Below are positions 3,953 to 46,094 of a stretch of DNA of 64,000 nt, piece by piece (position 1 is the stretch's first letter; every line of letters starts with the position of its first letter). Both the position numbers and the translations under genes were made by a program. The notes under the pieces were generated by a model. The model was given only the letters and a program-made list of their open reading frames with translations, did no database searches and was not told the DNA's origin. The DNA is from Gemmatimonadetes bacterium 13_1_40CM_69_22. Its GTDB lineage: Bacteria > Gemmatimonadota > Gemmatimonadetes > Gemmatimonadales > GWC2-71-9. The stretch covers positions 1-64,000 of the forward strand of contig MNEL01000016.1 of NCBI GenBank assembly GCA_001917665.1, written 5' to 3'.

Positions 3953-5503
3953 GTGGTTTCGGTTCTCAGGGCCTACCCACCCGTCCGCCTGTCCGCCCTA
4001 CAGTGCCCCGACGGCTCCACCCCGCCCTGCCGAGGGGCTCGCGCTAACCCCGGGCGCAAGCCCGGGGTGACGCCCACTAGCATCGCGGTGCTCTACTTCG
4101 ACAACCTCTCCCGCGACACCAGCGACGCGTACCTGGCGGACGGGCTCACCGAAGAAATCATCGCCCGCCTCGGGCAACTTGAACGGCTCGCCGTGAAGTC
4201 CCGCGCCGCCGTGCAGCGCTTTCGGCGGAGCGGCACGGATCCGCTGGCCGCCGCCCGGGCCCTGCGCGTCGCGCGATTGGTCACCGGTAGCGTGCGGCGC
4301 GCGGGGAACCGCCTCCGGGTGACGGTCGAACTGGTGCGGGCGTCGGACGGCGAGCACGTATGGGGCGACCTGTACGACCGCCGGGACGCCGATCTCCTCG
4401 CCGTCGAGGAGGACGTCACGCGTGCGGTCGCCGCGGCGATCGGCGGTCGGCTGCTGCCCGCCGAGCGCGCGACCTTGGCGGCTCGGCCGACCGCAAGCCC
4501 CGATGCCTACGATCACTTTCTCCGTGGCAATCACTTTCTCACCGCGCGCACCGGGGGCTCCATCGCGCGCGCCATCGACGAATACGAGGCGGCGACCCGA
4601 CTGGACCCCCAGTTCGCCGACGCCTTCGCGCGCACGGCGTTCGGGTACGGTCTGTTTCTCGAGTGGAGCTGGCCATCCCCCGCCACCCCGCCCGAGTCTC
4701 TCCTGGCCCGCGCGGTCGCCGCGGCCGACCGCGCGCTCACACTCCGGCCTGCGTCCTCCGACGCCTGGGTGGCGCGTGGTCAGATCCTCAGCGTTCGCGA
4801 CGAGAGTTTCCGCAGCCCGCTCCGGGAGGACGCGATCCTCGGGGCATTCGAGCGAGCGACGGCCTTCGATCCGCGCAGCGCCGAGGCATTTCATCAGTAC
4901 GGAGGACGCCTGCTGTTTCGCGGGAAGGATTCCGCCGCCGTCGCCGCGTTCCAGCACAGCTTGGCTCTCGACCCCGAGCGTCCGCTCACACTGACGGCGC
5001 TGGCATTGGAGCGCGTGGTCGCGCGCAGCTATGTCGAGGCCCGTCGCTGGCTGGACAGCGCGCTCACGGTCGATCCGGCGTTCGCCATCGCATACGCCCA
5101 TCGCGGCATGCTCGCGGTGCAACTCGGTGACCTCGCTCAGGCTCGCACGGACGGAGAGCTGGCGATTCGATTCGGGACGGGGTACCGACTGCCGGGGCTG
5201 GCGGTGCTCGTGATGACGGATGCCCGCACCGGGGACTCCCTCGGCGCCCGCGCGCGTTTGCAGGAATTGTTGCAAGCGGTGGTCGACCCGCTGCACCCCT
5301 CGCCGCGAGACGCGCGCTACGTCGGGCCGGCACTTCTGGCCACGGTAGGAGAGAATCGGCTACTCGAGTTTCTAGAGCGGGTCGAGCCGCGCCGCGCGAC
5401 GCTCTGGTTCGACTTGCGCCTGCCGGAATACGACTCGGTTCGAGCCGATCCCCGGTTCCGGCGGCTGGTGGAGGAATCGCGACCGCTCGGAGCGCCGCGA
5501 TGA
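3953..5503 (+). CDS. TolB_N/FlgO-like domain plus TPR repeat protein (paralog 1)
   Basis: 'SIAVLYFDNLSRDTSDAYLADGLTEEIIARLGQLERLAVKSR' plus TPR-like C-terminus; start uncertain (GTG 3953 or ATG 3872). Confidence 0.7.
   Translation: MVSVLRAYPPVRLSALQCPDGSTPPCRGARANPGRKPGVTPTSIAVLYFDNLSRDTSDAYLADGLTEEIIARLGQLERLAVKSRAAVQRFRRSGTDPLAAARALRVARLVTGSVRRAGNRLRVTVELVRASDGEHVWGDLYDRRDADLLAVEEDVTRAVAAAIGGRLLPAERATLAARPTASPDAYDHFLRGNHFLTARTGGSIARAIDEYEAATRLDPQFADAFARTAFGYGLFLEWSWPSPATPPESLLARAVAAADRALTLRPASSDAWVARGQILSVRDESFRSPLREDAILGAFERATAFDPRSAEAFHQYGGRLLFRGKDSAAVAAFQHSLALDPERPLTLTALALERVVARSYVEARRWLDSALTVDPAFAIAYAHRGMLAVQLGDLAQARTDGELAIRFGTGYRLPGLAVLVMTDARTGDSLGARARLQELLQAVVDPLHPSPRDARYVGPALLATVGENRLLEFLERVEPRRATLWFDLRLPEYDSVRADPRFRRLVEESRPLGAPR
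4047..4068 (+). repeat. REP-like hairpin (R1), in-ORF copy
   Basis: ACCCCGGGC GCAA GCCCGGGGT, 9-bp perfect stem. Confidence 0.9.
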
Positions 5504-18805: not shown

Positions 18806-20007
18806 ATGGAGCGGCGGGAGTTTTTGACGGTGGCGGGGGCGGTGGCAGCGGGTTTGTCAACGCGGAACGCGGAAGTCGGAACGCGGAACGGGATGCTCGG
18901 GCGCCTGTTCCGCGTTCCGCGTTCTTCGCCCGCCGCGTCGAGCGCGCCCAGGTCGAGCTCAAAAGCCGCAAGCTCGACTGCTTGATCGCCACGCCCAGCA
19001 CCAACTACGAGTACTTCACCGGGTACAACCCCGGCCGCAGCGAGCGGCTCATCGCGGTCGTCCTCCCCGCGACCGGGAAGCCGGTCGTCGTGTGCCCCGC
19101 GTTCGAGGTCGAGCGCATCATGCAGCACAGCGCCCTCACGGACGCCCGCGGCTGGGAGGAGCAGGAAAACCCGTACAAGCTGGTCCGCAGCGTGGTGCGC
19201 GAGCTAAAGCCGCACGGCACCGGCGTGATCGCTCTCGAGTCCACCACCAGCTACGACGTCTATCTGGCGCTGGCGGACCAGCTGTCGGGCTGGAAGGTCG
19301 TGGACGGAGCCCCGGTGACCGAACGGCTGCGGATCGTCAAGGCGCCCGAGGAGCTCGCGCTGATCCGTCGCGCCATCGAGATCACCGAAGCGGCGATCGC
19401 CGCCACGTTCGCCCAGCTCGCCGCCCAGGTGACCGAGCGCGACGTGGCGCAGCTCTTGTCGCGTGAGATGCAACAGCGCGGCGCGCCGGGCGGCGGGCTC
19501 GTGCAGTTCGGGTCCTCGAGCGCGCTGCCGCACCGCGGCCCGGCGGGGCCGCAGCTGGAGCGCGAGACCGTAGTGCTGATCGACGCGGGCTGCCGCGTCG
19601 CGGGGTACGACTCAGACATCACGCGCACCACCTGGTTCGGCGACAGCCCAGCGGACGAATTCCGGAAGGTTTTCAATCTCGTCCACGACGCCCAGACCGC
19701 CGCCATGCGGCTCGGCAAGCCGCTCTATACGCAGTGCCAGGAGATGGACCGTGCCGCGCGCACGGCGATCCGCGACGGCGGCTACGGCCCCTTCTTCACG
19801 CACCGCCTCGGCCATGGCCTCGGCATGGACGGCCACGAGCCGCCCTACCTCGTCGAGGGCAACGCGACGCGCCTCGAGCCGGGCATGGTGTTCACGATCG
19901 AGCCGGGGATTTATCAGCGCGGAAAGTTCGGGGTGCGGATCGAGGATGATTGCGTGATGACCGAGAGCGGCATCGAAGTGCTGAGCCATCGGCCCGGGAA
20001 GTACTGA
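18806..20007 (+). CDS. M24-family metallopeptidase (Xaa-Pro aminopeptidase-like), apparently frameshifted after a Tat-like signal peptide
   Basis: 'DAGCRVAGYDSDITRTTWFG', 'HRLGHGLGMDGHE', 'MVFTIEPGIY' active-site motifs. ATG 18806 encodes MERREFLTVAGAVAAGLS in another frame from the peptidase. Confidence 0.75.
18857..18927. repeat. Heptamer hairpin repeat (R3), GGAACGC type
   Basis: Left arm heptamers 18857-18891, right arm 18907-18927; 16-bp perfect stem AACGCGGAACGCGGAA/TTCCGCGTTCCGCGTT. Confidence 0.9.
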
Positions 20008-20031
20008 CCCCGGGCTTGCGCCCGGGGTCAG
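20004..20031 (-). repeat. REP-like hairpin (R1), extended 12-bp stem
   Basis: CTGACCCCGGGC TTGC GCCCGGGGTCAG between convergent genes. Confidence 0.9.
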
Positions 20032-36737: not shown

Positions 36738-38846
36738 ATGTCGCGCAGCACGATCCTCGGCATCGTCCTCGTCACAGCGGTGTCGCCAGCACGGCTCGAC
36801 GCCCAGCAGCAGCCGTTCACGCTCGAGCAAGCGCTGAGCGCCCCGTTCCCCGATGAGCTCGTGGCCGCCCCTGCCGGTGGCGCGATCGCCTGGGTCTACA
36901 ACGCGCAGGGCGCCCGCAACCTTTGGATCGCGACACCGCCCGAGTACCAGGGCCGGGCGCTGACGACCTACAAAGAGGACGAGGGACAGGAGCTCGGCGA
37001 GCTCGCCTGGACCCCCGACGGACGGGCGCTCGTGTACGTGCGCGGCGGTGCCAGCAACAGCCGCGGCGAGTACCCCAACCCGCTGTCGCTGCCCGCAGGC
37101 GTCGAGCAGGGGCTCTGGATCGTCGCCGCCGCGGGCAGTCTCCCGCGCCGGCTGGGCGAAGGCCATTCCCCGGCTGTGTCCCCGAAGGGCGATCGGGTTG
37201 CCTTCCTCAAGCAGGGACAGGTCTGGTGGGTGCCGCTCGCCGACAGCGCGAAGCCCGAACAGCTGGTCCACGCCCGCGGCACGGCCCAGGCGCTGCGCTG
37301 GTCCCCGGACGGCGCGAAGCTCGCGTTCGCGAGCGGCCGGGGCGACCACGGATTCATCGGGGTGTACGACGTCGCGGCCAAGACGCTCCGGTTCCTGGAC
37401 CCGAGCGTGGACCGCGACGAGGAGCCGGTGTGGTCTCCCGACGGAGCGCAGATCGCGTTCATCCGCATCCCGGCGGCCGAGCCCACCTTGCCCTTCACGC
37501 CCCGGCGCGCCGCGCCGCCTTGGTCGATCCGCGTCGCCGACGTTGCGACCGGCCGGGGACGGGAAGTGTGGAAGGCTGACGCGGGTCGGGGCAGCGCGTT
37601 CCGAGAGATCGTCGCCGAGAATCAGCTGCTGTGGGGTGCGGAGAGCCGCCTGGTCTTCCCCTGGGAGAAAGAGGGCTGGACGCACCTGTATGCGGTGCCG
37701 TTGTCCGGCGGCGCCGCCGCCCTGTTGACGCCGGGGGCATTCGAGGTGGAGCACCTAACGCTCACGCCCGACGGTCGTGAGGTCGTCTTCTCATCCAATC
37801 AGGACGACATCGACCGCCGCCACGTGTGGCGCGTGAGCGTGGCCGGTGGCAAGCCGCAGGCCGTCACGAGCGGCACCGGGATCGAGTGGGCGCCGGCCGT
37901 GGCGAGTGACGGAAAGGCGATCGCGTTCCTGCGTGCGGACGCGCGCAAGCCGCCCCGCCCGGCGATCCTCACGGGCTCGGGGCCGGCCCGCGAGCTCGCG
38001 ACCGGTGTGATCCCGGGCGAGTTCCCCGAAGCGGCGCTCGTGGAGCCGCAGCAGGTGCTGCTATCGGCTTCCGACGGCGTGATCGTCCACGGCCAGCTCT
38101 TCCTGCCCCGGAACCTGCGGCCGGGCGAGCGCCGGCCCGCGGTGATCTTCTTCCACGGCGGCTCGCGGCGCGAGATGCTGCTCGGCTGGCATTACCTCTA
38201 CTACTATCGCAACGCCTACGCGCTGAACCAGTACCTCGCGAGCCGGGGGTTCATCGTGCTCTCGGTGAACTACCGCAGCGGCATCGGCTATGGGCTGGAG
38301 TTCCGCGAGGCCCTCCATTACGGGGCGCAGGGCGCCAGTGAATTCGGCGACGTGCTCGGCGCGGGGCTCTACCTGCGCGGCCGCGGCGACGTGGATCCGA
38401 AGCGCATCGGCCTGTGGGGCGGCTCCTACGGCGGATTCCTCACCGCGATGGGCCTCGCCCGCGCCTCGGACCTGTTCGCGGCCGGCGTGGACCTGCACGG
38501 CGTGCATCAGTGGAACGTGGAGATCCGCAACTGGGTGCCGGACTACGACCCGGAGAAGCGCGCCGATTTCGCCAAGCTCGCGCTCGAGTCGTCGCCGATC
38601 GCGTACGTCAAGGACTGGCGCTCCCCCGTGCTGCTGATCCAGGGGGACGACGACCGCAACGTGCAGTTCAGCCAGACGGTCGATCTGGCGGCGGCGCTGC
38701 GGCCACTGGGCGTCGAGGTAGAGCAGCTCGTGTTCCCCGACGAAGTGCACGATTTCCTGACGCACGCGCACTGGCTCGCGGCCTATCACGCGGCAGCGGA
38801 ATTCCTGGAGCGGCGGCTGGGGAGCCCGCGGACGGCGAGCCGGTAG
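36738..38846 (+). CDS. S9-family prolyl oligopeptidase-like peptidase
   Basis: Signal peptide; WD-like repeats; 'GLWGGSYGGFLTAMGLA' nucleophile; 'LLIQGDDDRNVQFSQ'; 'EVHDF'. Confidence 0.88.
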   Translation: MSRSTILGIVLVTAVSPARLDAQQQPFTLEQALSAPFPDELVAAPAGGAIAWVYNAQGARNLWIATPPEYQGRALTTYKEDEGQELGELAWTPDGRALVYVRGGASNSRGEYPNPLSLPAGVEQGLWIVAAAGSLPRRLGEGHSPAVSPKGDRVAFLKQGQVWWVPLADSAKPEQLVHARGTAQALRWSPDGAKLAFASGRGDHGFIGVYDVAAKTLRFLDPSVDRDEEPVWSPDGAQIAFIRIPAAEPTLPFTPRRAAPPWSIRVADVATGRGREVWKADAGRGSAFREIVAENQLLWGAESRLVFPWEKEGWTHLYAVPLSGGAAALLTPGAFEVEHLTLTPDGREVVFSSNQDDIDRRHVWRVSVAGGKPQAVTSGTGIEWAPAVASDGKAIAFLRADARKPPRPAILTGSGPARELATGVIPGEFPEAALVEPQQVLLSASDGVIVHGQLFLPRNLRPGERRPAVIFFHGGSRREMLLGWHYLYYYRNAYALNQYLASRGFIVLSVNYRSGIGYGLEFREALHYGAQGASEFGDVLGAGLYLRGRGDVDPKRIGLWGGSYGGFLTAMGLARASDLFAAGVDLHGVHQWNVEIRNWVPDYDPEKRADFAKLALESSPIAYVKDWRSPVLLIQGDDDRNVQFSQTVDLAAALRPLGVEVEQLVFPDEVHDFLTHAHWLAAYHAAAEFLERRLGSPRTASR

Positions 38847-38850
38847 ACCT

Positions 38851-38939
38851 CCCGCGCTCGCGCGCGGGCTCAGTGCCCAACTGACCCCGGGCGCAAGCCC
38901 GGGGATGACCTCCCCCCCCGGAACCGCGGCCAGCCGCGG
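38851..38939. repeat. Hairpin cluster upstream of the Y1 transposase
   Basis: CCCGCGC-TCGC-GCGCGGG (38851-38868), R1 REP-like copy (38884-38905), CCGCGG-CCAG-CCGCGG (38924-38939). Confidence 0.85.
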
Positions 38940-39000
38940 ATTTCGGTGTCGTGGGGCGAAGATCGGGTACACGGAATCGGTGTGCGGACCCCAGTTTCTG

Positions 39001-39028
39001 CTGACCCCGGGCTTGCGTCCGGGGTCAG
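39001..39028 (-). repeat. REP-like hairpin (R1), upstream of transposase
   Basis: CTGACCCCGGGC TTGC GTCCGGGGTCAG, one wobble in stem. Confidence 0.9.
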
Positions 39029-39051
39029 TGAACAACCGCTGCTGGGACGAA

Positions 39052-39516
39052 ATGTCCAGTCACCACGCTTACCAGATGTACGCTCACATCACCTGGCATA
39101 CCTGGAAGCGAGTCGGGTGTGTGGACTCGGCGGCGGCGGGCGATGTGCAGAGTGCCGTAAGGAGCGCATGCCGGGCGACCGGCGTGCGATTGCTCCGGGG
39201 CGCCGTATTAGCGGATCACGTACATCTCGTCGTCAGTTTCCGCCCGGACATTCGATTGAGCGACTTTGTTCGGCTCGCAAAATCCGTCGCAGCGACACGT
39301 ACCAATCGGCGCACCACTGGCTCCGTCCGCTGGGCGCGCGGCTACTTCGTGACCACGATTCACAAACGGGATCTCACACCCGTCATCCACTATGTAGCAC
39401 GTCAGTTCCAGCGGCACCAAGATTTGGTCCCACGAGACACCAGAGTGCCCCGGGGACTAACTGACCCCGGGCGCAAGCCCGGGGTGGCTGAGAACCCGAG
39501 TCGGGAAGGTGACTGA
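39052..39516 (+). CDS. Y1/HUH transposase, IS200/REP-associated (RAYT-like)
   Basis: 'MYAHITWHTWKR', HUH motif 'ADHVHLVVSFRPD', 'RWARGYFVTTIHKRDLTPVIHYVARQFQRHQ' with candidate catalytic Tyr. Confidence 0.85.
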   Translation: MSSHHAYQMYAHITWHTWKRVGCVDSAAAGDVQSAVRSACRATGVRLLRGAVLADHVHLVVSFRPDIRLSDFVRLAKSVAATRTNRRTTGSVRWARGYFVTTIHKRDLTPVIHYVARQFQRHQDLVPRDTRVPRGLTDPGRKPGVAENPSREGD

Positions 39517-39693
39517 CCCCGGGCGCAAGCCCGGGGTGGCTGAGAACCCGAGTCGGGAGGGTGACTGACCCCGGGCGCAAGCCCGGGGTGGCTGAGAACC
39601 CGATTCGGGAGGGTGACCGACCCCGGGCGCAAGCCCGGGGTGGCTGAGAACCCGAGTCGGGAGGGTGACTGACCCCGGGCGCAAGCCCGGGGT
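39461..39693 (+). repeat. 52-bp-period tandem array of REP-like hairpins (5 cores)
   Basis: R1 cores at 39464, 39516, 39568, 39620, 39672, separated by GGCTGAGAACCCGAGTCGGGAGGGTGA-type spacer. Confidence 0.95.
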
Positions 39694-39720
39694 AAACGAC
39701 CCGGGGTGGGTTCTGTACGG

Positions 39721-39745
39721 TCCCCGGGCTTGCGCCCGGGGTCAG
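39721..39745 (-). repeat. REP-like hairpin (R1), inverted relative to the array
   Basis: TCCCCGGGC TTGC GCCCGGGGTCAG. Confidence 0.88.
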
Positions 39746-41077
39746 TTAGCGCACCCCCCCCATCAGGTTCCGCACCGGCCGAAGGAGCAGGAACATCACC
39801 AACGCGGCGCCCAGCGTCACCGCCGCGGTGGCGCCGAACAATGTCGGGAGCGGCGTCGTGCTGATGAAGCCGGCCGACCAGCCGGCCAGCTTGTTGCCGA
39901 GGGCGTTCGAGAGGAAGAACACACCCATCATCAGCCCGACGATCCGCGCCGGCGCGAGCTTCGTCACGACCGAGAGCCCCACAGGGTAGAGACACACCTC
40001 GCCGAGCTCCTCGATGAAATACGCACCCACGAGCCACAGGGGGCTGACCTTCACACCGCCTTGCGCGGCTGCTCCCGCCGGCATGAGCAGAACGAACGCC
40101 AGGCCCACGAACATCAGCGCGAGCGCGAACTTCGCCGGGGACGATGGCTGGCGCGGGCCGAGTCTCACCCACAGCCACGCGAACACAGGCGACAGGAGAA
40201 TCACGAACGCCGCCTGAACGGACACGAACCACGAGGCGTACAGCTTGAGGCTCAGGAGCTCGAGTCGCACGTAGCGGTCCGCGAACAGCGTGAGCGTGGA
40301 CCCGGCCTGCTCATACGCCCCCCAAAACAGGGACGCGAACAGGAAGAACACCACCACGGCGGCCATGCGCTTCCAGTCCTCGGCGGTGAAGCCGCCCTGG
40401 CTGACCCCGGGCGCAAGCCCGGGGCTCTCCGTGGCTGGTTTGGGGCGCGCGGCGAGGCGGTCCAGCGCCGGCTGGAGGCGGCTTCGCCCGGCGACATACT
40501 GGATCAGCCCCAGAGTCATGCCGACACCGGCGCACGCGAACCCGAGGTGCCAATCAATTCCCTCGGCGATCTTCCCGGCGACGATCGGCCCGAACAGCGC
40601 GCCGAGGTTGATGCCCATATAGAAGATCGAGAACCCCGCGTCCCGTCGCTCATCCTCCTGCTCGTACAGTGACCCGACGAGGGTGGAGGCGTTGGGCTTC
40701 AACAATCCCGTCCCAATGACGATGAGCGAAAGGCCGGCGTAGAAGAACGGCAACGGGTGGAAGGCGAGGGTGAAATGGCCCAGCGCGATGATGGCCCCCC
40801 CGACGAGCACGCTGCGGTATTGCCCGAGCCAGCGGTCGGCGACGACGCCGCCAAGGATCGCCGCCAACCAGACGCTGCTGACGTAGTTGCCGTAGACCGC
40901 GCCCGCGTGCTGATCCGTGAAGCCGAGCGCCTTGACCATATAAAGGATCAAGAAACCCCGCATCCCGTAGTAGCTGAACCGTTCCCACATCTCCGTGAAG
41001 AAGAGGGTGGACAGTCCGCGGGGATGCCCGAACCAGCCCGTGTCGGACGCGAGGGGGATGGTGCGCGGCGCGGCCAT
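39746..41077 (-). CDS. POT-family proton-dependent oligopeptide transporter
   Basis: 'TLFFTEMWERFSYYGMRGFLILYMV', 'GTGLLKPNASTLVGSLY', 'FSIFYMGINLGALFGPIV'. Confidence 0.9.
   Translation of the reverse strand: MAAPRTIPLASDTGWFGHPRGLSTLFFTEMWERFSYYGMRGFLILYMVKALGFTDQHAGAVYGNYVSSVWLAAILGGVVADRWLGQYRSVLVGGAIIALGHFTLAFHPLPFFYAGLSLIVIGTGLLKPNASTLVGSLYEQEDERRDAGFSIFYMGINLGALFGPIVAGKIAEGIDWHLGFACAGVGMTLGLIQYVAGRSRLQPALDRLAARPKPATESPGLAPGVSQGGFTAEDWKRMAAVVVFFLFASLFWGAYEQAGSTLTLFADRYVRLELLSLKLYASWFVSVQAAFVILLSPVFAWLWVRLGPRQPSSPAKFALALMFVGLAFVLLMPAGAAAQGGVKVSPLWLVGAYFIEELGEVCLYPVGLSVVTKLAPARIVGLMMGVFFLSNALGNKLAGWSAGFISTTPLPTLFGATAAVTLGAALVMFLLLRPVRNLMGGVR
40404..40425 (+). repeat. REP-like hairpin (R1), inside the POT transporter ORF
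   Basis: ACCCCGGGC GCAA GCCCGGGGC. Confidence 0.9.
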
Positions 41078-43905: not shown

Positions 43906-46094
43906 GGTCGCGTCCAGTCGCAGCCCTTTTCCCTCTGTTCTGGGCAACGGCGCTTGGGGCGCAGACGGCGGTCGTCTACGGCACTGTCAGAGACGAGAGG
44001 GGTGCGCCATTTCACAATGCTAACGTCGTGGTCCTCGGCACCGCGCTCGGGAGCCTCACCGACCGCGAGGGTCACTATCGTCTGCCGGGGGTACCGGCCG
44101 GCCGGATCATCCTGAGCGCGAGGTTCATCGGTCACGTTCACGCGTTCGATACCCTGACTGTCGCAGCGGGCGACTCGGCGGAGGCGGACTTCACCCTCCG
44201 CCCGTCCACGCTCGACAATCCCCTCCCCTTCGTCGTGGTCGGGCCCGTGGTGGTGACCGCCGCCAAGCGCTCCCAGCTCCTCGACCAGGCCATCACGAGC
44301 GTCGCCGTCGTCAGCGACACCGAGCTCGCCCGCCGCGCGGTGAACACGGTGGACGAAGCCGTGGACAAAGCGCCGGGCGTGCAGTTCCTCTACGGGCAGG
44401 TGAACATCCGGGGGTCGACGGGCTACGTGCAGGGCCTGGGCAGCCGGGTGCTGCTGCTGGTCGATGGCGTCCCCGCGAACCAGGGCGACCGCGGCGGGAT
44501 CAACTGGGACCTGGTGCCGCTCGAGGACGTGCAGCGCGTCGAGATCGTGAAAGGCGCGGGCTCCTCGCTGTACGGGTCGGCGGCGCTGGGCGGCGTCGTG
44601 AATGTGCTCACGCGCGACATCGCGCCCGGCGTCCACGTACGCGTGCGCGCCACCGGCGGCACCTACGCCAACCCACCGCATGACGTCTGGAAATTCCGCG
44701 ACTACACCGGCGCCGAGGAGGGGCTCGATGCGACGGGCTCCTACGGGACCGAGCTGGTGCGCGCGAGCGTCAGCGGCGGTGGCTGGCACTCGGACGGCTA
44801 CCGCGAGCAGGACCGGCGCGACCACTGGCACACGGCGGCGAAGCTCGACTGGCGGCCGTTGGCCGCGACGCGCCTCACCGCTTCGGGCTCCTGGGCGAGC
44901 GACCAGTACCAGACGCCGCTCATCTGGTGCACGCGGGGCGGCTGCGACGACCGGGGGCAGGCCTATCAGCCCTTCATGATCGACACCGCGGGGCGCGGCG
45001 CGTTCACGCGCTCCGATAAGGGCTACGTCAGCGCCACGCTCGAGCGCACGGCGTCGGCCCGCTTCGCCTGGCAGGCCCGCGGCTCGTGGCTGCGTACGCG
45101 CTTCAGCGACTACCAGCCCGGCAACGACGACGCGGGCATCGCCAACCGGTTCGGCGCCGAGCTGCGCGCGCTCGCGCACCCAGCGGAAGGCCGCGTGGTG
45201 ACGGTCGGCGCTGAGGGCGCCCGATCTGACGTCGCGAGCGACATCTTCGGCGACCACTCGCAAAACGAGGTCGCCGCCTACGGTGAGAGCGAGCAGCGCG
45301 TCGGGCGCACCCGGTTGACGGCCGGCGCCCGCATCGACTACATCGCGGTGGACGGCGGCGGGCTCTCGGCCGTGGTGAGCCCGCGCGTGGGCGCGGTGCT
45401 GGAGACGAGCGCCGGCGCCTGGCGGGCGTCGGCGGGGCGCGGGTTCCGCGGGCCGTCGCTCGCGGAGCGGTTCGTGTCGACCATCGTGAGCGGACTCGTC
45501 GTGATCCCCAACCCAGACCTACATCCCGAGACGGCCTGGTCCCTCGAGCTGGGCAACGCCGCGCGCATCTCGCCCTCGGTCCATGTCGACGCCGCGCTCT
45601 TCTGGACCGAGGCGCACGACCTGATCGAGCCGAACGTGAACCTGGGCACCGGCCAGATCCAGTTCCGCAACGTCGCCCGAGCCCGGCTCGCGGGGCTCGA
45701 CCTGTCCCTCAGCGCGACGCCGCTCACCCCCCGGCTCACGACGGCGCTGGCGTACACCTTCCTGTACGCCCGGGGGCTCGCGCACGACACGGTGCCCGAG
45801 CGGCCGCTCGCGTTCCGCCCGAAGCACCTCCTGACGTTGAGCGCCGACTATCAGTGGCACACTGTGTCCGCAGGCGGCGACTTCCGCTACACCAGCCGCT
45901 TCGAGCGCGTCGAGCTCTACCCGGGCGACGAGCGCGTGGCCGGGAAGGTGCTCGACCTGCGAGTGGGCGTCGAGCGGGGTCCGCTGTCGGTCCGCGGCCG
46001 GCTCGCGAACGCGCTCAATTACATCTACAACCAGGTGCCCCGTACGCTCGCGCCGGTGCGGACGCTGTCGGTCACGCTGACCTGGACGTATTAG
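43896..46094 (+). CDS. TonB-dependent receptor with carboxypeptidase-regulatory-like N-terminal domain
   Basis: 'VYGTVRDERGAPFHNANVVVLGTALGSLTDREGHYRLPGVPAG', plug domain 'VNIRGSTGYVQGLGSRVLLLVDGVP', beta-barrel C-terminus. Confidence 0.9.
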   Translation: MPVRSRPVAALFPLFWATALGAQTAVVYGTVRDERGAPFHNANVVVLGTALGSLTDREGHYRLPGVPAGRIILSARFIGHVHAFDTLTVAAGDSAEADFTLRPSTLDNPLPFVVVGPVVVTAAKRSQLLDQAITSVAVVSDTELARRAVNTVDEAVDKAPGVQFLYGQVNIRGSTGYVQGLGSRVLLLVDGVPANQGDRGGINWDLVPLEDVQRVEIVKGAGSSLYGSAALGGVVNVLTRDIAPGVHVRVRATGGTYANPPHDVWKFRDYTGAEEGLDATGSYGTELVRASVSGGGWHSDGYREQDRRDHWHTAAKLDWRPLAATRLTASGSWASDQYQTPLIWCTRGGCDDRGQAYQPFMIDTAGRGAFTRSDKGYVSATLERTASARFAWQARGSWLRTRFSDYQPGNDDAGIANRFGAELRALAHPAEGRVVTVGAEGARSDVASDIFGDHSQNEVAAYGESEQRVGRTRLTAGARIDYIAVDGGGLSAVVSPRVGAVLETSAGAWRASAGRGFRGPSLAERFVSTIVSGLVVIPNPDLHPETAWSLELGNAARISPSVHVDAALFWTEAHDLIEPNVNLGTGQIQFRNVARARLAGLDLSLSATPLTPRLTTALAYTFLYARGLAHDTVPERPLAFRPKHLLTLSADYQWHTVSAGGDFRYTSRFERVELYPGDERVAGKVLDLRVGVERGPLSVRGRLANALNYIYNQVPRTLAPVRTLSVTLTWTY

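Follow-up and report, generated by a model that had tools for sequence, protein, structure and literature searches.

Among Y1 transposases of the TnpA type, the signature Y---Q--RH is that of class 1, and Y---NP is that of class 2, which includes the REP-associated tyrosine transposases or RAYTs (Quentin et al. 2018, PMC6006769). The same study places subclass 1.2 mostly in Cyanobacteria and Bacteroidetes, and reports class 3 in Planctomycetes, Acidobacteria and Proteobacteria. The closest described case to the system reported here is class 3, with which it has in common a CnGA foot, dispersed REP-like hairpins and a REPtron-like layout, and from which it is set apart by the protein motifs printed for that class. 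No REP/RAYT system in Gemmatimonadota was found described in the open-access literature, in line with the original prediction, which had suggested that the lineage might be one where such a system had not been described. We consider that the locus is best explained, with a probability of about three in four, as a REPtron-like system in which a domesticated, single-copy IS200-type (Y---Q) Y1 transposase (TnpA) lies between inverted hairpins and is accompanied by dispersed non-autonomous hairpins.

The locus was analyzed in a metagenome-assembled genome (MAG) of a soil bacterium, Gemmatimonadetes bacterium 13_1_40CM_69_22 (G000; 2.36 Mb, 71.5% complete). The window is the whole stretch of DNA studied, 64,000 nucleotides long (G000:C58:1-64000). 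It includes a single tRNA gene, tRNA-Ala (GGC), at 45386-45465. The relatives sampled are 102 genomes from the GTDB family of G000, and all the genomes compared are MAGs. Hairpins were counted by pattern searches, with the reversed pattern as control. The features of the window are collected in Table 1.

Table 1. Transposase gene and REP-like hairpins in the window
Feature	Coordinates	Strand	Basis
Y1/HUH transposase gene (TnpA, 154 aa + stop)	39052..39516	+	translation; PF01797 E=2.3e-18
Outermost left REP-like hairpin, foot CTGA, loop GCAA	38880..38905	+	pattern search
Inverted hairpin just 5' of the TnpA gene, one stem mismatch, foot (TCAG on the + strand) toward the gene	39001..39029	-	pattern search
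Five-hairpin tandem array, 52-bp unit; gene-facing foot [A]CTGA, in one hairpin CCGA	39460..39693	+	
Last hairpin of the cluster, inverted and overlapping the POT transporter gene at its stop codon	39721..39747	-	
Dispersed hairpin, in frame within the POT/PTR2 peptide transporter gene; the - strand encodes SPGLAPGV	40401..40425	+	
Dispersed hairpin, foot CTAA	4044..4068	+	
Dispersed hairpin with feet on both sides (CTGA...TCAG)	20004..20031	-	

The Y1/HUH gene that had been predicted, with an HVH motif and a candidate tyrosine in VIHYVARQ, was confirmed by its translation and by the PF01797 match. HVH occupies residues 56-58, the tyrosine is Tyr114, and Gln118 follows it. The prediction also held that the window contains no other transposase-like gene; this is true of Y1 transposases, to which the check was limited, as the gene is the sole PF01797 gene of its contig. 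Two further Y1 genes lie elsewhere in the genome. In the TnpA alignment, His56, His58, Trp94, Tyr114, Gln118 and His122 are among the invariant or nearly invariant residues; the signature is Y---Q--RH, nearly all members have DHVH, and the core comprises about 120 residues. The window protein passes the NCBIfam IS200/IS605 equivalog model NF033573 (68.7 bits, cut-off 55) and fails the RAYT model NF047646 (32.3 bits, cut-off 80); assignment to the classical RAYTs was consequently rejected on both the model and the motif. A member of the sister clade described below scores 67.3 bits with the IS200/IS605 model and 44.0 bits with the RAYT model. When the AF2 model of TnpA (pLDDT 93) was used for a fold search, the best E-values were those of the ISDra2 and IS608 transposases, and the best overlay was with the E. 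coli RAYT 4er8 (TMq 0.72, rmsd 2.4 A). This overlay was not used to classify the protein, because the monomer model may merely pack the tyrosine helix in cis. The model score, the Y---Q motif and the fold matches to ISDra2 and IS608 are what would be expected of an ordinary IS200/IS605 element that transposes as a whole, its subterminal hairpins being repeated by chance and the dispersed hairpins being its degraded ends; this alternative is taken up again with the history of the locus.

The hairpin is a CTGA-tagged CCCCGGGC-GCAA-GCCCGGGG, inverted copies of which frame the TnpA gene. Searching the window with the core ACCCCGGGC-N4-GCCCGGGGT, with at most three mismatches, gave 11 matches, at positions 4047, 20007, 38884, 39004, 39464, 39516, 39568, 39620, 39672, 39721 and 40404, where 0.30 were expected from shuffles (shuffle maximum 2). 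With the foot-bearing pattern, 13 matches were obtained versus 0.01 expected. All the single copies of the original prediction (4047, 20007, 38884, 39001, 39721 and 40404) were thereby recovered, and its five-copy array was found as such. The hairpin just 5' of the gene has the same position and orientation as those of the orthologues. At the 3' end, the TnpA stop codon TGA (39514-39516) is part of the CTGA foot that belongs to the second array unit. The array thus overlaps the end of the gene and encodes its last ~20 residues. The tail DPGRKPGV is common to the window TnpA and some of its orthologues (L021 and L023).

A genome-wide count of the core had been proposed along with the original prediction; G000 contains 32 perfect hairpins, and the reversed-pattern control gives 0. 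With relaxed stems, 47 foot-bearing matches were obtained versus 0 for the control, a few two-footed sites being counted twice. When 75 oriented sites taken from several genomes are combined, the foot reads C, T/C, G/A, A at positions -4 to -1 (1.72, 1.26, 1.18 and 1.90 bits, respectively), while the 3' side of the hairpin has 0.9 bits at +1 (A/T) and about 0.1-0.2 at +2 to +4. A foot present on one side only is best read as the mark of a single-strand recognition hairpin with its guide. Nothing convincing was found in these 75 sites when a conserved cleavage motif was sought at a fixed distance outside the hairpin. Hairpins occur in the genome singly, as inverted pairs and as a tandem array, the latter at the TnpA locus; the pairs have either orientation (C1:51838/51923 outward, C1:108971/109046 inward). 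When the foot on the gene side was compared with that of the dispersed copies of the same genome, agreement was clear in some genomes (G000, G011, G085) and poor in others (G012, G015, G024). As the match is only partial, strict genome-by-genome agreement of the feet was rejected.

Occupied and empty sites, the comparison of which had also been proposed, were found within the genus. At the window site 20008, the hairpin and its feet are present in G000, and G012, G013 and G015 have a short, uninterrupted gene junction, which corresponds to a precise insertion. A second site, 5' of a sufB-like start (L012), is occupied in G000 and G014 and empty in three congeners. Taking into account this polymorphism at individual sites, the mobile unit is most likely a single hairpin of ~21-28 bp, to judge from the sequences compared. 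The dispersed hairpins are indeed single units of ~25 bp and carry no remnants of the TnpA gene, which argues against their being the ends of a degraded insertion sequence. The hairpin of the POT gene is missing in seven orthologues. A precise insertion at that place was rejected, since the POT linker is hypervariable and the boundary of the insertion cannot be drawn.

Other hairpins lie in frame inside a purH-like gene (L142; PF01808, 5.5e-16), a leuS-like gene (L015; weak Pfam support) and an oxidoreductase-like gene (L013). These in-frame copies add peptides such as LTPGASPG to the proteins. At three such sites within proteins, a different hairpin family, with loops GTCA or GTGA, is found in other species of the genus. 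In the congener G014 (L283, L285 and L289), the loop at those sites is GTCA, the feet are ATAG, GTAG or CTAG, and two of the three are short tandem arrays. Since the same protein sites hold different hairpin families, they are tolerant to insertion.

GC-rich hairpins are able to stop or to protect transcripts, and many of the hairpins are located at gene ends. The hairpins might then be host elements (terminators, mRNA stabilizers or sites for nucleoid proteins) selected in place, the transposase locus having merely gathered some of them. What we observe fits such elements poorly: the hairpins lack a T-tract on their 3' side, their foot is asymmetric and present on one strand only, and copies lie in frame in the purH-like, leuS-like and POT genes. 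Transcription terminators in particular were rejected on the absence of the T-tract and the intragenic copies. An Rfam search with the hairpins gave no family above threshold, only chance sub-threshold matches. The relatives, considered next, contribute one observation to each side, and on the whole we regard selection in place as very improbable.

Screening GTDB with the protein family retrieved 23 loci in Gemmatimonadota and, outside the phylum, three weak matches only. Orthologues of the window TnpA (50-73% identity), flanked by inverted tetraloop hairpins, are present in at least ten Gemmatimonadota genomes. A sister clade (39-46% identity to the window TnpA) has triloop hairpins in place of the tetraloop ones. 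Wherever both hairpins of a locus were found, the pair is inverted, with the feet toward the gene. The loop labels were taken from the loci themselves, and the tree therefore tests congruence: all triloop proteins fall in one clade (100/100), around which the tetraloop genes form a grade. Both together are separated from the sampled RAYTs (99/96) and from the sampled plasmid IS200 transposases. Grouping with ordinary mobile IS200 transposases had been named beforehand as a result that would speak against the prediction; TnpA groups with neither these nor the RAYTs sampled, so this objection does not clearly apply.

Among the 102 genomes, 12 have a gene of the tetraloop clade and 11 a gene of the triloop clade, one genome having both; classical RAYTs above the cut-off were found in two genomes only. 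Hairpin abundance follows the genes. The median number of tetraloop hairpins is 7.5 in the 12 genomes with the tetraloop-clade gene versus 0 in the 90 genomes without it (p=4e-7, ignoring phylogeny), and that of triloop hairpins is 7 in the 11 genomes with the triloop gene versus 0 in the other 91 (p=2e-11, again ignoring phylogeny). The ratio of tetraloop to triloop hairpins also varies according to the gene that a genome carries (p=0.0016, in a test that likewise ignores phylogeny). This pairing of loop type with transposase clade is not what would be expected of host elements selected in place; the existence of genomes that have hairpins and no detected gene would agree with them. Twelve of the 80 genomes in which no gene of either clade was detected have at least five hairpins; these may be relics, the work of another enzyme or the result of missing assembly. 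Equal abundance of hairpins in relatives lacking the gene, the other objection raised in advance, is not clearly what is seen, as hairpins are much rarer there in spite of these 12 genomes.

Several further observations concern hairpins and Y1 genes in these genomes. G000, which is incomplete, contains ten triloop hairpins, yet no triloop-clade gene was found in it. Two triloop-clade genes are decaying (L040 and L124, one lacking the catalytic tyrosine and one being a fragment), with triloop hairpins still at the locus. The two other Y1 genes of G000, L001 (on C29) and L003 (on C50), are flanked by the hairpin families CGCGTCC-ttca-GGACGCG and CCCATCC-tgaa-GGATGGG, respectively, which indicates that each Y1 gene has palindromes of its own. 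GCCGAG-footed hairpins occur in relatives beside genes of the L001/L003 type.

The tetraloop gene lies in a neighborhood composed of an oligopeptide ABC transporter (Dpp), a peptidase S9 and the POT transporter in G000, G010, G011, G022, G026 and G085, that is, in four genera. In G026 and G085, where the peptidase gene is retained, it is located on the opposite side of this gene with respect to the window, which points to a local rearrangement. The peptidase-POT gap measures 42 bp in G001 and 98 bp in G085. Four congeners have, at the equivalent of window positions 38846-39749, between the peptidase S9 gene (or its position) and the POT gene, a gene that, to judge from its sequence, probably encodes a metallo-beta-lactamase-fold-like hydrolase. 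A recent jump of the cluster into an empty peptidase-POT site was rejected, because in congeners a different gene occupies that place, and because the transposase keeps its synteny in other genera, where it lies across the peptidase gene from the window position. The triloop genes share flanks of 7-10 kb within each of two groups.

The different occupation of the cluster site across six relatives could be reconciled with an ordinary IS200/IS605 element. Against such an element stand the single clade copy per genome (one in G000, its best identity elsewhere being 73%) and the low identity between genomes, the synteny over four genera, dN/dS values of about 0.1 (0.09-0.15 in the tetraloop clade, i.e., purifying selection), the inverted hairpin pair, unlike the same-strand left and right ends of these elements, and the fact that no tnpB was seen adjacent to the window TnpA gene. 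Synteny and copy number speak against an ordinary insertion sequence, an alternative that we hold to be quite improbable as a whole. As far as comparison of the genomes can tell, TnpA is a retained host gene rather than a spreading insertion sequence.

Returning to the REPtron-like system, we infer by analogy that TnpA mobilizes the hairpins. According to the biochemistry of IS608, ISDra2 and REPs (PMC8266576), TnpA would bind the hairpin as a folded single strand, such as that of the lagging-strand template. Acting as a guide, as it does in IS608 and in REPs, the 5' foot would choose the cleavage site, and the tyrosine would form a 5'-phosphotyrosine link. Religation would then spread the hairpin unit or duplicate it in tandem, while the TnpA gene itself would stay in place. 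If the foot is the guide, swaps of tetraloop and triloop and of feet between the clades would directly probe the rules of single-strand recognition.

It has to be considered whether TnpA is itself a class 3 protein (Quentin et al. 2018), in which case the system would be known in kind. The CnGA foot of the hairpins flanking class 3 genes covers both CTGA and CCGA (PMC6006769), the copy numbers are REP-like, and the residue after W is A, which fits the W[TA] of class 3. The motifs printed for that class (PMC6006769) are, in contrast, NHVH, Y----Q and a core of 155 residues, versus DHVH, Y---Q--RH and about 120 residues here, and we find the assignment rather unlikely. We suggest tentatively, as a possibility still short of even odds, a second origin of the REP/RAYT type of symbiosis, from the IS200-type (Y---Q) branch: several separate Y1 clades of Gemmatimonadota would each keep their own hairpins (CTGA in the tetraloop clade, CCGA/CTGA/TTAA in the triloop clade, a GCCGAG foot in the clades of the other Y1 genes), as domesticated single-strand transposases that radiated independently of the classical RAYTs. 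With two sister clades with different hairpins, synteny, purifying selection and insertion polymorphism within a genus, the lineage provides a comparative series for how a mobile IS200-type transposase turns into a resident, hairpin-maintaining enzyme, and for why hosts retain it.

Comparison with the remaining known systems is as follows. Short palindromes in frame inside coding genes have been described as intragenic REPs and as the Rickettsia RPE (Di Nocera 2013, PMC3733652); the latter differ in carrying a CGTC tag, and no transposase is known to be associated with them (PMC3733652). Subclass 1.2 (Quentin et al. 2018) resembles TnpA in its Y---Q--HH-like signature (Y---Q--RH here), its low copy number and in not being an insertion sequence, but REPs have not been reported for it, and it shows WQ together with a conserved C-terminal domain, whereas here REPs are present and the tail is variable. 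With IS200/IS605 elements (IS608 and ISDra2, subclass 1.1), the system shares the HUH and Y---Q core, the fold, recognition hairpins and a presumed 5'-foot guide; those are multi-copy elements with end hairpins on the same strand, whereas here we find a single copy, inverted hairpins and vertical inheritance. The TnpA system matches IS200/IS605 by sequence and not by behavior. In its layout and history it resembles the RAYT/REPtron systems (Nunvar 2010, PMC2817692; groups 2 and 3, subclasses 2.2 and 2.5): a single-copy Y1 gene with an HUH core, vertically inherited and placed between two inverted hairpins, and dispersed palindromes of 20-30 bp with a conserved 5' tetranucleotide, occasionally in frame within genes. 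Coevolution of hairpin and enzyme is also common to both, loop type and abundance ratio fitting it here and foot agreement doing so in part. The differences are Y---NP and a GT[AG]G foot there versus Y---Q and C[T/C][G/A]A here, a dispersed population of hundreds there and of tens here, and the host, here Gemmatimonadota. The RAYT reading of the original prediction stands as regards the arrangement (a single-copy Y1 gene with inverted and dispersed foot-tagged hairpins), the hairpin type that tracks the clade, the abundance that tracks the gene and the existence of polymorphic insertion sites, the lack of which had been named beforehand as evidence against it; it does not stand as regards the family, since neither the RAYT model nor Y---NP nor the GT[AG]G foot fits. 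What appears to be new is a REPtron-like arrangement built on an IS200-like enzyme that is not a classical RAYT and that has another recognition foot.
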